Origin: a virus
Length of the DNA: 29,270 bases
Reading direction: 5' to 3' (one strand)
Virus record (IMG/VR): IMGVR_UViG_3300030109_000514
Coordinates: 5,469 to 34,738 of that record
Both the position numbers and the translations under genes were made by a program. This document shows positions 15,648-28,140 of the stretch, in pieces. Each line of letters starts with the position of its first letter. Position 1 is the first letter of the stretch. The notes beneath the pieces were generated by a model. That model made no database searches. It had not been told where the DNA came from and was given only the letters and a program-made list of their open reading frames with translations.

Positions 15648-15861
15648 TTATATATTTATCCTTTATTTCTTTTTGTGATAAATTTTTTTCTGTTTTTGTT
15701 TGTTTTAATTCAGCATCTATATCATTAGGTTCTATAATATCTACTAAAGCATATCTGTATACCTTGTTCTTGCATTTTTTACCTATCCATTGAAAGTGTA
15801 ATAATTCTGGTGCTTCTTCATACTGGCCAAGATTAATGGGATCAAACCTAGATATAGTCAT
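15637..15861 (-). CDS. Small protein of unknown function, first gene of the packaging/virion unit
   Basis: 74 residues, starting MTISRFDPINLGQYEEAPEL, with a Trp-Ile-Gly-Lys-Lys patch in the middle and a charged helical C-terminus. I see no known motif. It overlaps the nuclease gene by 11 bases and is the first gene after the 450-base non-coding stretch, 40 bases downstream of one copy of the 14-bp operator-like palindrome. No clear Shine-Dalgarno precedes the ATG, so the start is less certain than the frame. Translation of the 3' part overlapping the next gene is consistent with coupling. Confidence 0.6.
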   Translation of the reverse strand: MTISRFDPINLGQYEEAPELLHFQWIGKKCKNKVYRYALVDIIEPNDIDAELKQTKTEKNLSQKEIKDKYINGR

Positions 15862-15901
15862 AATAACAACAATAGCACGTATTCGCTAAATGTTCTACCT
15901 G

Positions 15902-15915
15902 TTAACATAAGTTAA
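15902..15915. promoter_or_regulatory. Operator-like site 1, TTAACATAAGTTAA
   Basis: Matches the perfect palindrome TTAACTTAAGTTAA (site 2) at 13 of 14 positions. It lies 40 bases upstream of the ATG at 15861, ahead of the packaging/virion transcription unit. I could not find a convincing sigma-70 promoter next to it. Confidence 0.5.
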
Positions 15916-15977
15916 TATGTAAAATTACCCACCGCTACACGGATTAATCCATTGTATAGTATACTCCGAAGCGTTTT

Positions 15978-15991
15978 GGGGGGTAGCCCCC
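15978..15991. repeat. G-run/C-run hairpin in the terS-terL gap
   Basis: GGGGGGTAGCCCCC forms a five-pair G:C stem with a very short loop. Runs this GC-rich are exceptional in this AT-rich genome. It could be a transcript-end structure below terS (minus strand, followed by AAAACG, no U-tract) or part of a packaging recognition or cleavage site. Only the structure is seen. Confidence 0.5.
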
Positions 15992-16311
15992 TCTAGCAAC
16001 ACGCACATTACCCGCATTCTTTTTATTTATGCCGTGTCGTAGCTGTCGTATCTATGTTTTTGTAGGAGTGTTAGAGCTTTGTAGTAAGAGAACAAGACCA
16101 CAACACAGCCACAGGCCTTGGTCTGGAGGCGTGTGAGTGTGTGTCTATAACCATTCTCTACGCAGATGTTGGCCATGTGTCAAGTGTCTATACACCTATC
16201 CGTGTAGATGTTCCGTCTATTGCTGTCCTAGTGTTGTAGTATCTATATACGCCTCTATGTACGTATCTTACTTGATATGTGTCTGTATGATGATCTATGT
16301 AAGAATAAGGG

Positions 16312-16746: not shown

Positions 16747-16775
16747 ATTCTAACCTAAAGCAGTTGACAAGTAAA
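16747..16775 (-). promoter_or_regulatory. Probable sigma-70-type promoter for terS
   Basis: Minus strand: -35 TTTACT (16775-16770), 17-bp spacer, -10 TAGAAT (16752-16747), matching consensus at 4 and 5 of 6. Transcription would begin near 16740, giving an almost leaderless terS message, so the true start may be slightly different. It overlaps the facing plus-strand promoter. Confidence 0.45.
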
Positions 16776-16791
16776 TATATTTATGTATTAA
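16764..16791 (+). promoter_or_regulatory. Probable sigma-70-type promoter for the small-gene operon
   Basis: Plus strand: perfect -35 TTGACA (16764-16769), 16-bp spacer, -10 TATTAA (16786-16791, 4 of 6). It lies 31 bases before the first ATG of the operon. The perfect 14-bp palindrome at 16788-16801 covers the -10 and the expected transcription start, so a bound repressor would block it. Confidence 0.65.
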
Positions 16792-16801
16792 CTTAAGTTA
16801 A
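16788..16801. promoter_or_regulatory. Operator-like site 2, perfect palindrome TTAACTTAAGTTAA
   Basis: A perfect 14-bp palindrome over the -10 and start region of the 16764-16791 promoter. It is the best copy of a motif repeated at four other positions in the window, all upstream of transcription units. Confidence 0.65.
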
Positions 16802-22991: not shown

Positions 22992-23005
22992 TTAAGTTAG
23001 GTTAA
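22992..23005. promoter_or_regulatory. Operator-like site 3, TTAAGTTAGGTTAA
   Basis: Reads TTAACCTAACTTAA on the minus strand; 12 of 14 positions match the perfect palindrome. It ends 13 bases before the DUF1376 start and covers the expected transcription start of the 23011-23039 promoter. Confidence 0.5.
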
Positions 23006-23010
23006 TATCA

Positions 23011-23039
23011 GTTTTACATTAAGAGAAACTACGTGTCAA
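23011..23039 (-). promoter_or_regulatory. Probable sigma-70-type promoter for the DUF1376-primase-helicase unit
   Basis: Minus strand: perfect -35 TTGACA (23039-23034) inside ACACTTGACAC, 17-bp spacer, -10 TAAAAC (23016-23011; 4 of 6). The start would fall near 23004, inside operator-like site 3. The 11-bp word around the -35 recurs in the 15862-16311 gap. Confidence 0.55.
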
Positions 23040-23106
23040 GTGTGTCTACTATCTTGTATGTAGTTGTAGGTGTAGTTGAAGGTGAAGATGAAGATGAAGG
23101 GGATAC

Positions 23107-23123
23107 TTTTGCTATTAGCAAAA
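23107..23123. repeat. 17-bp perfect inverted repeat
   Basis: TTTTGCTATTAGCAAAA: two 8-base arms around one central T. Such a compact dyad is protein-binding-like rather than a transcript hairpin, because the loop is only one base. It lies in the non-coding region beside the tandem repeat and is unlike the 14-bp operator motif. Confidence 0.6.
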
Positions 23124-23134
23124 CGATACGATTT

Positions 23135-23156
23135 TATAGCAATGCTATAGCAATGC
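23135..23156. repeat. Tandem 11-bp direct repeat, TATAGCAATGC twice
   Basis: Two exact adjacent copies of TATAGCAATGC (23135-23145 and 23146-23156), one helical turn apart, followed by CATTG. The spacing places bound proteins on the same DNA face. Only two copies, so an iteron array is suggestive rather than shown. Confidence 0.6.
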
Positions 23157-23186
23157 CATTGTTTATAACCATTCTAAAGAAGGGAG

Positions 23187-23235
23187 GTGGTGCGGAAACC
23201 TAAACTAAAATGAAAGAGGGAAAAAACCGCACCAC
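23187..23235. repeat. GC-rich 9-bp dyad with 31-base spacer
   Basis: GTGGTGCGG (23187-23195) and CCGCACCAC (23227-23235) are exact inverted copies. On the minus strand the first arm is followed by TTTTTT within the loop; no U-tract follows the second arm. It may be a transcript structure between the Cro-like gene and the replication genes, or part of an origin. Confidence 0.55.
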
Positions 23236-23305
23236 GATATAGCTTACACTCTCGCTTACACTATATACACGGTATACTTTTAACCTATTTTATAATGGTC
23301 TACGC

Positions 23306-23518
23306 CTACCGTTTAGGCGCAATCTCTAAATCTGGTCTTATATAACTTATATCATAATCACCTAATTGTGCAATCTGATATGCACGAAAAGGTGGTATTA
23401 CTTGCCATTTAGATACGGCAGGATGTGAGATCCCCAGCATACGTGATAAATTTTTACCACCATATTTACCTACAATCTCTTTCTTACGTTCTTTTGCTAA
23501 TCCTACCTTTTCTATCAT
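23306..23518 (-). CDS. Cro/YdaS-like helix-turn-helix regulator
   Basis: 70 residues. The HTH reads Y-G-G-K-N-L-S-R-M-L-G-I-S-H-P-A-V-S-K-W (about 19-38), followed by I-P-P-F-R-A-Y-Q-I-A and a C-terminal Y-I-R-P-D-L. The A-V-S-K-W recognition helix with a R-P-D-L ending is typical of the Cro/YdaS-type DNA-binding proteins in lambdoid and other prophages. Its ATG shares an ATGA with the previous stop. The gene is divergent from the SSB operon, and two 14-bp operator-like sites lie in the intervening promoter region, so it is the first candidate for their repressor. Binding is inferred. A hairpin, CGCCTA/TAGGCG, overlaps its stop codon. Confidence 0.82.
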   Translation of the reverse strand: MIEKVGLAKERKKEIVGKYGGKNLSRMLGISHPAVSKWQVIPPFRAYQIAQLGDYDISYIRPDLEIAPKR

Positions 23519-23742
23519 GTTTCACCCTGTTGTATTTTTGCAACAGTAGTGTGTCTTAATTGCAACAGGTATTTAGACCTATCCTCACACTTTATTGCTT
23601 CATCTGTAAGCACTAATATATCATCTGCTTTGTTATAATGTTGAGGGATAACACTAGATCTGTCAAGATTAATAATTTCTTTATCAATCCTTTTTTGTTT
23701 AGCTTGTAATTCCTCTATAAGTTCATCTAATACACTTGCCAT
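23515..23742 (-). CDS. Coiled-coil-like small protein upstream of the Cro-like gene
   Basis: 75 residues from ATG 23742; a TTG at 23778 would add 12 residues but has no ribosome-binding site. The N-terminal half MASVLDELIEELQAKQKRID is predicted coiled coil, followed by a helical region and QLRHTTVAKIQQGET. Acidic/basic alternation fits oligomerisation. No family recognised. It is the first gene of the minus-strand control unit, directly before and coupled to the Cro-like gene, so it may act with that regulator; speculation. Confidence 0.6.
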   Translation of the reverse strand: MASVLDELIEELQAKQKRIDKEIINLDRSSVIPQHYNKADDILVLTDEAIKCEDRSKYLLQLRHTTVAKIQQGET

Positions 23743-23787
23743 AATTTGTTCTATATTTGTTTTGTTAACAAAAGTCAATCTATATAC

Positions 23788-23816
23788 TTGACTTACGTTA
23801 ATATATCATTTAACTT
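23788..23816 (+). promoter_or_regulatory. Possible promoter of the SSB-exonuclease operon
   Basis: Plus strand: -35 TTGACT (23788-23793, 5 of 6), 17-bp spacer, -10 TAACTT (23811-23816, 3 of 6). The -35 lies in operator-like site 5 and the -10 in site 4. The weak -10 lowers confidence, but the position before the first gene is right. Confidence 0.4.
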
Positions 23817-23823
23817 AACTTAA
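23788..23823. promoter_or_regulatory. Tandem operator-like sites 4 and 5, 22 bp apart
   Basis: Site 5 TTGACTTACGTTAA (23788-23801) and site 4 TTAACTTAACTTAA (23810-23823) match the 14-bp palindrome at 12 and 13 of 14. Their starts are 22 bp apart, two helical turns, as for cooperative repressor pairs. They overlap both divergent promoters. Confidence 0.55.
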
Positions 23824-23827
23824 TCAA
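23800..23827 (-). promoter_or_regulatory. Probable promoter of the control unit
   Basis: Minus strand: -35 TTGATT (23827-23822, 4 of 6), 16-bp spacer, -10 TATATT (23805-23800, 5 of 6). It faces the plus promoter and overlaps the tandem operator-like sites. Transcription would start near 23794, ahead of the ATG at 23742. Confidence 0.55.
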
Positions 23828-23856
23828 TAATAAATTAGTGAAAAAAAAGGATAAAT

Positions 23857-24462
23857 ATGACAAGCATAATAGCAAATGGTGGCAATGATACACCAAGTTA
23901 TCCAACGGTATCTGTTGGTGTACATAAGGCCAGATGTGTAAGAGTAATAGATCTCGGTACACAGCAAAACGATTATCAAGGGCAGATTAGTTGGAAAAGA
24001 CAGGTAATGTTGATATGGGAAGTACCATCTGAAACAGATAATAAAGGTGAACCATTAACAATCAGTAAGTTCTATACGTTATCATTAAATGAAAAAGCAA
24101 ATCTTGCTAATGATTTAGTATCATGGCGTGGTAGACCTTTTACTGAAACAGAAAAGAAAGCGTTTGATATATCAAAGGTAGCAGGTAAACCGTGTAGTAT
24201 AAATGTTATACTAAATCAAAACGGTAAACCAAAAGTATCAACCGTTATGCCAATAGGTAAGAATGATGAGATTGCACAACAGTTTCATCCTAACATGGTG
24301 TTTAGTATTACAGACTTTCAAGAAAAAAAGATGGAAGTATTTAATCAATTACCCGAAGGCATAAGAAACATTATCTTAAAATCTAAAGAGTTAGAAGGTA
24401 CGGAAAAACAAGATTTAGGTGATGAAAATAATGCACAAGATCTTGGTGATATTCCGTTCTAA
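23857..24462 (+). CDS. Phage SSB-like single-stranded DNA-binding protein
   Basis: 201 residues with an OB-fold-like layout: K-A-R-C-V-R-V-I-D-L-G-T-Q (24-36), M-L-I-W-E-V (51-56), L-V-S-W-R-G-R-P-F-T (87-96) and V-A-G-K-P-C-S-I-N-V (108-117). The W-x-G-R-x-[FL]-T ... F-D-[IL]-x-x-[VL]-x-G-K-P-C pattern is shared by phage ssDNA-binding proteins found beside exonucleases. The end is an acidic tail ...LGDIPF, which closely resembles the C-terminal tip by which bacterial SSB recruits partners. It is coupled to the exonuclease gene by a TAATG overlap. First gene of the plus-strand operon, behind the operator pair. Confidence 0.85.
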   Translation: MTSIIANGGNDTPSYPTVSVGVHKARCVRVIDLGTQQNDYQGQISWKRQVMLIWEVPSETDNKGEPLTISKFYTLSLNEKANLANDLVSWRGRPFTETEKKAFDISKVAGKPCSINVILNQNGKPKVSTVMPIGKNDEIAQQFHPNMVFSITDFQEKKMEVFNQLPEGIRNIILKSKELEGTEKQDLGDENNAQDLGDIPF

Positions 24463-27424: not shown

Positions 27425-27697
27425 ATGGGTTATAGCAAGGAACATAAAAATCCTAGCGGTGGTCTTAACCAAAAAGGTAGAGATTATTTTAAAAAAACCG
27501 AAGGATCTAATTTAAAACCACCTTTATCAAAAGGTAAGAGTGGCCGTAGAATATCGTTTGCGGCCCGTTTCGGGGGCATGAAAGGCCCAATGAAGGATGA
27601 TAAGGGTAGACCTACCAGAAAAGCATTAGCGTTAAAAAAATGGGGGTTCTCGTCAGCCCAAGCGGCAACTAATTTTGCTAATAGAAATAAGGCATAA
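27425..27697 (+). CDS. DUF6321-like basic protein
   Basis: 90 residues: N-P-S-G-G-L-N-Q-K-G-R-D-Y-F (9-22), G-S-N-L-K-P-P (27-33), F-A-A-R-F-G-G-M-K-G-P-M-K-D (45-58) and G-R-P-T-R-K-A-L-A-L-K-K-W-G-F (61-75). This series matches DUF6321, small basic proteins of phages and large DNA viruses with unknown role, presumably nucleic-acid binding. It overlaps the lysozyme start by one base (TAATG). More G+C-rich at its 3' half than flanking genes. Confidence 0.82.
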   Translation: MGYSKEHKNPSGGLNQKGRDYFKKTEGSNLKPPLSKGKSGRRISFAARFGGMKGPMKDDKGRPTRKALALKKWGFSSAQAATNFANRNKA

Positions 27698-28140
27698 TGG
27701 ATTATAACGATTTAAAAGAACGTATTAAGAAACATGAAGGATTTGTAAACAAGATATATAAGGATAGTCTTGGTTTTGCCACAATCGGATATGGCCACCT
27801 TGTAACAAAAGAAGATAGTTATAAAGAAGGTGTAGAATATACAGAAGAAGAATTAAGCAAACAATTTGATAGTGATTTTACAAGAGCAGGATTAAATGCA
27901 GAAATGTTATTAAAAGATAACGAAGTATCTACAATACAATGGGATGCTAAATGTGTTCTAATTGAGATGGTATTCCAATTAGGTATAGGTGGTGTTGGTA
28001 AATTTAAAAAGATGTGGGCCGCACTACAAAAAGAAGATTACGGTGAAGCATCATTTCAAATGATGGATAGCCGTTGGGCTACACAAACTCCCTCACGTGC
28101 CAAGTCTTTATCTGAAATTATGAGAAGTTGCAAATCATAG
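27697..28140 (+). CDS. Phage lysozyme (endolysin), GH24 / T4 type
   Basis: 147 residues. Catalytic triad spacing is that of T4 lysozyme: Glu14 in K-H-E-G-F, Asp23 in Y-K-D-S-L-G and Thr29 in F-A-T-I-G-Y-G-H. The C-terminal lobe has I-Q-W-D-A-K-C-V-L-I-E-M-V-F-Q-L-G and S-R-W-A-T-Q-T-P-S-R-A, again family-typical. It cleaves peptidoglycan at the end of infection. It has no signal peptide, so a holin must deliver it, fitting the upstream holin candidate. Very secure. Confidence 0.95.
   Translation: MDYNDLKERIKKHEGFVNKIYKDSLGFATIGYGHLVTKEDSYKEGVEYTEEELSKQFDSDFTRAGLNAEMLLKDNEVSTIQWDAKCVLIEMVFQLGIGGVGKFKKMWAALQKEDYGEASFQMMDSRWATQTPSRAKSLSEIMRSCKS

Follow-up and report, generated by a model that had tools for sequence, protein, structure and literature searches.

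The 29,270-nucleotide stretch analyzed here (the window) comes from a virus contig of 34.7 kb and encodes a 70-aa Cro-like protein that is likely, in our assessment, to be both an autorepressor and the master regulator of a lytic marine phage, turning its early genes off. The phage group to which it belongs has no detectable integrase or lysogeny repressor and appears to time its lytic growth with a switch of the lysogeny type. The nearest named relatives are Pelagibacter phages, foremost EXVC032P Baldr (OQ414636), with the same gene order, and the hosts are probably alphaproteobacteria. Baldr is an isolate genome with a circular, complete record of 39.5 kb; its Cro-like protein is 69% identical to that of the window, its cro gene is labeled just hypothetical, and the record mentions no regulation. 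Relatives of the 70-aa protein were found in 69 viral contigs. Gene content was surveyed in 19 contigs, namely the window's own and 18 relatives including Baldr, which are mostly linear and perhaps incomplete, Baldr being circular. The sites, their positions, their conservation and the gene content were computed; from these we infer that Cro binds the operators and thereby represses, and in what order the events set out below take place.

Operators and promoters of the divergent gap

The cro operon and a rightward operon start from divergent ATGs at 23742 (minus strand) and 23857 (plus strand), as the first-pass annotation had it, leaving a gap of 114 bp. Two operators 22 bp apart had been proposed there. 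The palindromes between the ATGs are real, but there are three of them, O1 to O3, with starts at 23765, 23788 and 23810, in register at spacings of 23 and 22 bp (Table 1). The operator sequence, 14 bp long, is palindromic: TTNAC-N4-GTNAA. When the gap was shuffled 20,000 times with dinucleotides preserved, 0.9% of the shuffles contained one exact site and none contained two, so the presence of two exact sites in 114 bp is not due to chance. At least two exact sites are found in the divergent region of nearly all untruncated relatives (of about 70), as well as in Baldr and the window; the remaining relatives pair an exact site with a near one, apart from L067, which has a near site alone. Three exact sites 21 to 24 bp apart occur in Baldr (31720, 31743 and 31765) and in groups L025, L026, L028, L030, L037, L038, L039 and L045. 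An exact counterpart of O3, at the same spacing, is present in Baldr and in groups L025, L028, L030, L038 and L045. Deeper groups have two gap sites, 27 to 36 bp apart.

Table 1. Operators, promoters and genes discussed in the text, in window coordinates
Feature	Position	Strand	Sequence	Remarks
Candidate late promoter	15869..15897	-	TAGAAC-17-TATTGT	begins 4 bp after OA
Operator OA	15902..15915		TTAACATAAGTTAA	exact; upstream of late promoter
Operator OB	16788..16801		TTAACTTAAGTTAA	exact; over -10/start of TTGACA(16764)-16-TATTAA, rightward small early genes
Operator OC	22992..23005	minus-strand sequence	TTAACCTAACTTAA	one mismatch; right after -10 of TTGACA-17-TAAAAC
Primosome promoter	23039-23011	-	TTGACA-17-TAAAAC	before DUF1376 primosomal gene (22979)
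Cro-like HTH protein, 70 aa	23306..23518	-		Pfam PF14549 P22_Cro, 39.4 bits vs cut-off 30.2
75-aa ORF, first in cro operon	23515..23742	-		no family match
cro promoter	23750..23778	-	TTGACT(23778-23773)-17-TATAGA(23755-23750)	conserved; -35 within O1
Operator O1	23765..23778		TTAACAAAAGTCAA	exact palindrome, conserved; holds cro -35
Operator O2	23788..23801		TTGACTTACGTTAA	exact, conserved; holds -35 of rightward promoter
Rightward promoter, NGO0469-family/exonuclease operon	23788..23816	+	TTGACT(23788)-17-TAACTT(23811)	conserved -35
Operator O3	23810..23823		TTAACTTAACTTAA	one mismatch; covers rightward -10
NGO0469-family phage replication initiation protein	23857..24462	+		NCBIfam NF046043, E 1.2e-59; phrog_862, 4e-12

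Promoters were judged by conservation, because a generic promoter scan gave no surplus over shuffled sequence. On the cro side, 23/25 non-redundant relatives have TTGAC[AT] and, 16 to 18 bp further on, a -10-like box; the -35 boxes match consensus at 5.5/6 on average. The minus promoter first proposed, TTGATT-16-TATATT, does match the sequence but is present only in the window's closer relatives, and it was dropped in favor of the conserved TTGACT-17-TATAGA. The proposed plus promoter, TTGACT-17-TAACTT, is borne out. A TTGAC[AT] -35 box recurs in 22/25 non-redundant relatives (mean, 5.6/6), with a weaker -10, which in the window is the poor TAACTT. Unlike the cro-side promoter, the linkers between the gap elements vary across relatives. 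AGTCAA in O1 and TTGACT in O2 serve as the -35 boxes of back-to-back promoters and are 9 bp apart, so that polymerase is unlikely to sit on both promoters at once. Because the -10 box of the cro promoter ends 7 nt before the ATG in the window and in relatives close to it, their cro-operon mRNA is probably leaderless; the Baldr cro operon, unlike that of the window, has a leader. At the end of the 75-aa ORF, the direct repeat TTGCAACAG occurs twice, 22 bp apart (23538-23568).

The gene starting at 23857 had been read as SSB. It matches the NGO0469 "phage replication initiation" family instead, which leaves single-stranded-DNA binding as a putative role. The rightward operon also includes the lysozyme gene (27697-28140).

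The Cro-like protein and gene content of the group

Exactly one protein scores above the P22_Cro cut-off in each of the 19 contigs. Its recognition-helix region hardly varies, with residues S31, H32, A34, S36, K37 and W38 invariant in 34 homologues; tblastn aligns the 70-aa protein with enterobacterial Cro-like proteins at 37 to 39% identity, and phmmer connects it to 1rzs with an E value of 0.0085. Its AlphaFold model, with a pLDDT of 65 and three helices where the HTH fold of the P22 Cro family has five, is too poor for a fold search and lends no structural support. Operator sites lie at cro's own promoter in nearly every relative. Judging from location and co-occurrence, the Cro-like protein is probably the operator binder. 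At the protein level the likeness is to Cro of Salmonella phage P22 (PF14549; PDB 1rzs), which belongs to the same family by profile, is of similar size and has a DNA-binding HTH; P22 differs in that neither an opposing C2/CI repressor nor an integrase was found here.

The absence of an integrase and a CI-type repressor, noted at first for the window, extends to all of the 34.7-kb contig and to the 18 relatives. With positive controls throughout, a search of the 19 contigs for integrase (PF00589), for a partition gene (ParA) and for a second repressor of the S24 type (PF00717) gave no match, although a repressor lacking both S24 and HTH_3 would escape it. HTH_3 itself produced only weak, sub-threshold matches, all at the cro gene except for one 35-aa frame in G012. 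Moreover, a scan of 84,980 species genomes of bacteria and archaea, which would pick up only close relatives of Cro, found none; hence no integrated copy was seen, and host prophage copies were set aside within that reach.

The first-pass annotation had recognized the architecture of a repressor/Cro switch, a view now supported by the P22_Cro match, by three operators over the -35 and -10 boxes of both promoters and by their conservation. It had wavered between a timing switch in a lytic phage and a sign of temperate ancestry. Lytic timing is favored, with temperate ancestry hinted at only by the family of Cro and by how the operators are laid out. These two features, the P22_Cro family and the lambda-like spacing of the three operators, would suit a CI/Cro immunity region that has lost cI and integrase and retains its operators merely for cro autoregulation. 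We regard such a relic as unlikely: integrase and S24 repressor are absent from all 19 contigs, the gene facing the cro operon across the operators is a replication gene and no repressor, and throughout the group operators are kept at three more promoters. That replication operons carry the operators could also indicate a dormant or carrier state, in which Cro silences the replication genes, keeps a non-integrated genome quiet and confers superinfection immunity. This is more improbable still, since ParA is missing from the 19 contigs and the same sites would repress the cro promoter itself, which would disfavor stable repression.

Operators at other promoters

In an unbiased palindrome scan of 16 non-redundant contigs (1024 five-base half-sites by 12 gaps), TTAAC-N4-GTTAA ranked first of 12,288 palindromes, with 39 occurrences against 1.4 expected (z 27; runner-up, z 8). 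When TTNAC/GTNAA was examined by gap length, N4 alone stood out strongly (87 vs 16.5 expected), and in 21 contigs the reversed-motif control had 17 matches vs 109 for the real motif. A TTGAC[AT] box lies in a repressor-compatible place at 41 of the 87 sites in the 16 non-redundant contigs (background, 1.6%), a figure that runs too high for embedded boxes, TTGAC being permitted by the motif itself.

The motif has two TTAA elements and the hosts are probably alphaproteobacteria, so the host regulator CtrA (TTAA-N7-TTAA) was weighed as the binder, CtrA-regulated phages of alphaproteobacteria having been published (PMC9437464). This is extremely improbable. TTAA-N7-TTAA is unenriched (41 vs 46.6 expected) and has no occurrence in the window's own contig, and the real motif has N6 between the TTAA units, with C and G fixed; CtrA boxes were ruled out by this spacing.

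The window's own contig has exact sites only at O1, O2, OA and OB, the latter two in promoter regions. Together with the imperfect OC, the operator thus recurs at three promoters outside the gap (22992, 16788 and 15902), which makes it a genome-wide regulon. Baldr likewise has late and early sites. The sites at early promoters cover the -35, the -10 or the start, a repressor-type placement. At the OC position, imperfect TTAAC-N4-CTTAA recurs in many relatives, with an exact site in L040 and L068; since O3 shares OC's imperfect form, graded affinity is suggested. At OB, 31 non-redundant relatives have a TTGAC -35 box 22 to 31 bp upstream of the operator, as would be expected of a repressor position. 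The rightward small early genes at OB carry ribosome-binding sites.

Two further observations concern the surroundings of these sites. TTTACT-17-TAGAAT (16747-16775), with similar sequences in relatives, is a divergent small-terminase promoter whose elements interlock with those of the rightward early promoter. The non-coding stretch that separates cro from the primosome promoter (23030-23300) is rich in repeats (GATGAAGATGAAG and tandem TATAGCAATGC), with similar repeats in some relatives, and is a candidate replication origin. An Rfam search of the window gave zero matches.

Outside the group, HTVC010P and HTVC112P, pelagiphages without P22_Cro, have one site each, about chance level. The motif is not shared by the NGO0469-family neighborhoods of unrelated phages, barring one scattered match. 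In one unrelated phage, MW202545 (L252:3686-4657), a YdaS-like protein is divergent from the NGO0469-family gene, the sole YdaS-like partner among these neighborhoods; its recognition helix differs from that of the 70-aa Cro-like protein, and TTAAC-N4-GTTAA is absent from the 8.6-kb stretch covered.

The late operon and the proposed timing circuit

OA stands before the late operon, which consists of a 74-aa ORF, a Holliday-junction resolvase-like gene, the terminase large subunit and structural genes. Neither OA half-site varies across 22 non-redundant contexts, in contrast to the four bases between the two. In most of these contexts OA is followed after 4 bp by a poor -35 (TTGAAC, TTGTAC, TTGCAT or TAGAAC) and, 17 bp on, by a TA-rich -10. 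The late ATG lies 5 to 7 nt after the -10 in most of the 22 contexts; in the window it is at 15861, 7 nt after the -10, and the late mRNA is therefore probably leaderless. The late (15861-15874) and cro (23742-23755) operons thus both have an ATG 7 nt after the -10, and the other early mRNAs have ribosome-binding sites.

Upstream, from the late operator to the small terminase gene, about 400 bp are non-coding (15916-16311), and AGCGG-GGG is strongly conserved 13 to 25 bp upstream of the operator; this stretch is a possible packaging site or second control element. In L121-L200, many viral contigs have their start 20 to 350 bp before the small terminase gene, possibly marking the physical genome end.

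No T7-type RNA polymerase gene was found in the 19 contigs (the control pelagiphage HTVC011P was positive), and these phages therefore probably use the host enzyme. At the start of infection, host RNA polymerase would fire both gap promoters, back to back, the leftward transcript covering the 75-aa ORF, cro and on to the replication genes and the rightward one the NGO0469/exonuclease operon. Rising Cro would then occupy the three 14-bp operators. With both -35 boxes inside O1 and O2 and the rightward -10 under O3, Cro would shut its own and the divergent operon; at OC and OB it would close the primosome and rightward small-gene promoters too. Affinity would probably be graded between exact and conserved imperfect sites. 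With no CI and no integrase involved, the circuit would thus set timing and dosage rather than a choice between lysis and lysogeny. The presence of lysozyme in the rightward operon makes a plain "early only" label doubtful, and its expression under Cro may depend on internal promoters or on derepression as replicated DNA titrates Cro.

An extension of this scheme is that the same Cro represses the early genes and activates the late structural operon, an early-to-late switch that we consider possible, at somewhat less than an even chance. A strong site just upstream of a weak late -35 would correspond to the usual activator layout, and the lack of a phage RNA polymerase gene is consistent with it. 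The -35 consensus match is about 3.5/6 for late promoters against 5.5/6 for early ones, even with offsets picked to favor the late boxes. Against this, the operator center falls near -46.5 from the predicted late start, whereas lambda CI at PRM has its operator centered at -42. Moreover, deeper relatives have a weaker second site overlapping the late -35, which would repress, so that repression at high concentration is possible too. We know of no case of Cro activating late genes.

Among known systems, lambda OR likewise has three palindromic operators over the -35 and -10 boxes of divergent promoters, 21 to 24 bp apart; the present system differs in its 14-bp core sites, its one regulator, its replication-gene partner and its extra early and late sites elsewhere. 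In phiKO2/N15, too, a P22-type Cro goes with a divergent OR region that has several short operators, but there CB fills all operators and Cro just OR3 (PMC4997575), and a CB-like protein was not found here. PY54 Cro is likewise reported to bind one operator, beside the prophage repressor (PMC4488713). The nearest functional parallel for a dual switch is phi29 p4, which with host polymerase represses early promoters and activates late ones (PMC11476376). The likeness is one of possible logic alone, late activation being a prediction here, and each promoter of the present phages has separate sites, unlike p4; the site positions would fit such early-repress/late-activate logic.

The literature searched describes no Cro regulon for pelagiphages, and the pelagiphage transcriptome paper found concerns other phage types. 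To our knowledge, gene timing in SAR11 phages without their own RNA polymerase has not been worked out. The fullest version of the proposal, which we consider less likely than not, is that in a widespread group of lytic marine phages using host polymerase Cro acts through operators of graded affinity to repress four early promoters and, from an upstream operator, activates the late one, with the regulator and late mRNAs leaderless. The analysis singles out one regulator, defines a 14-bp operator and points to four promoter regions, all of which can be tested with a named isolate. If true, this would be a Cro switch operating without its usual partner, the CI repressor.
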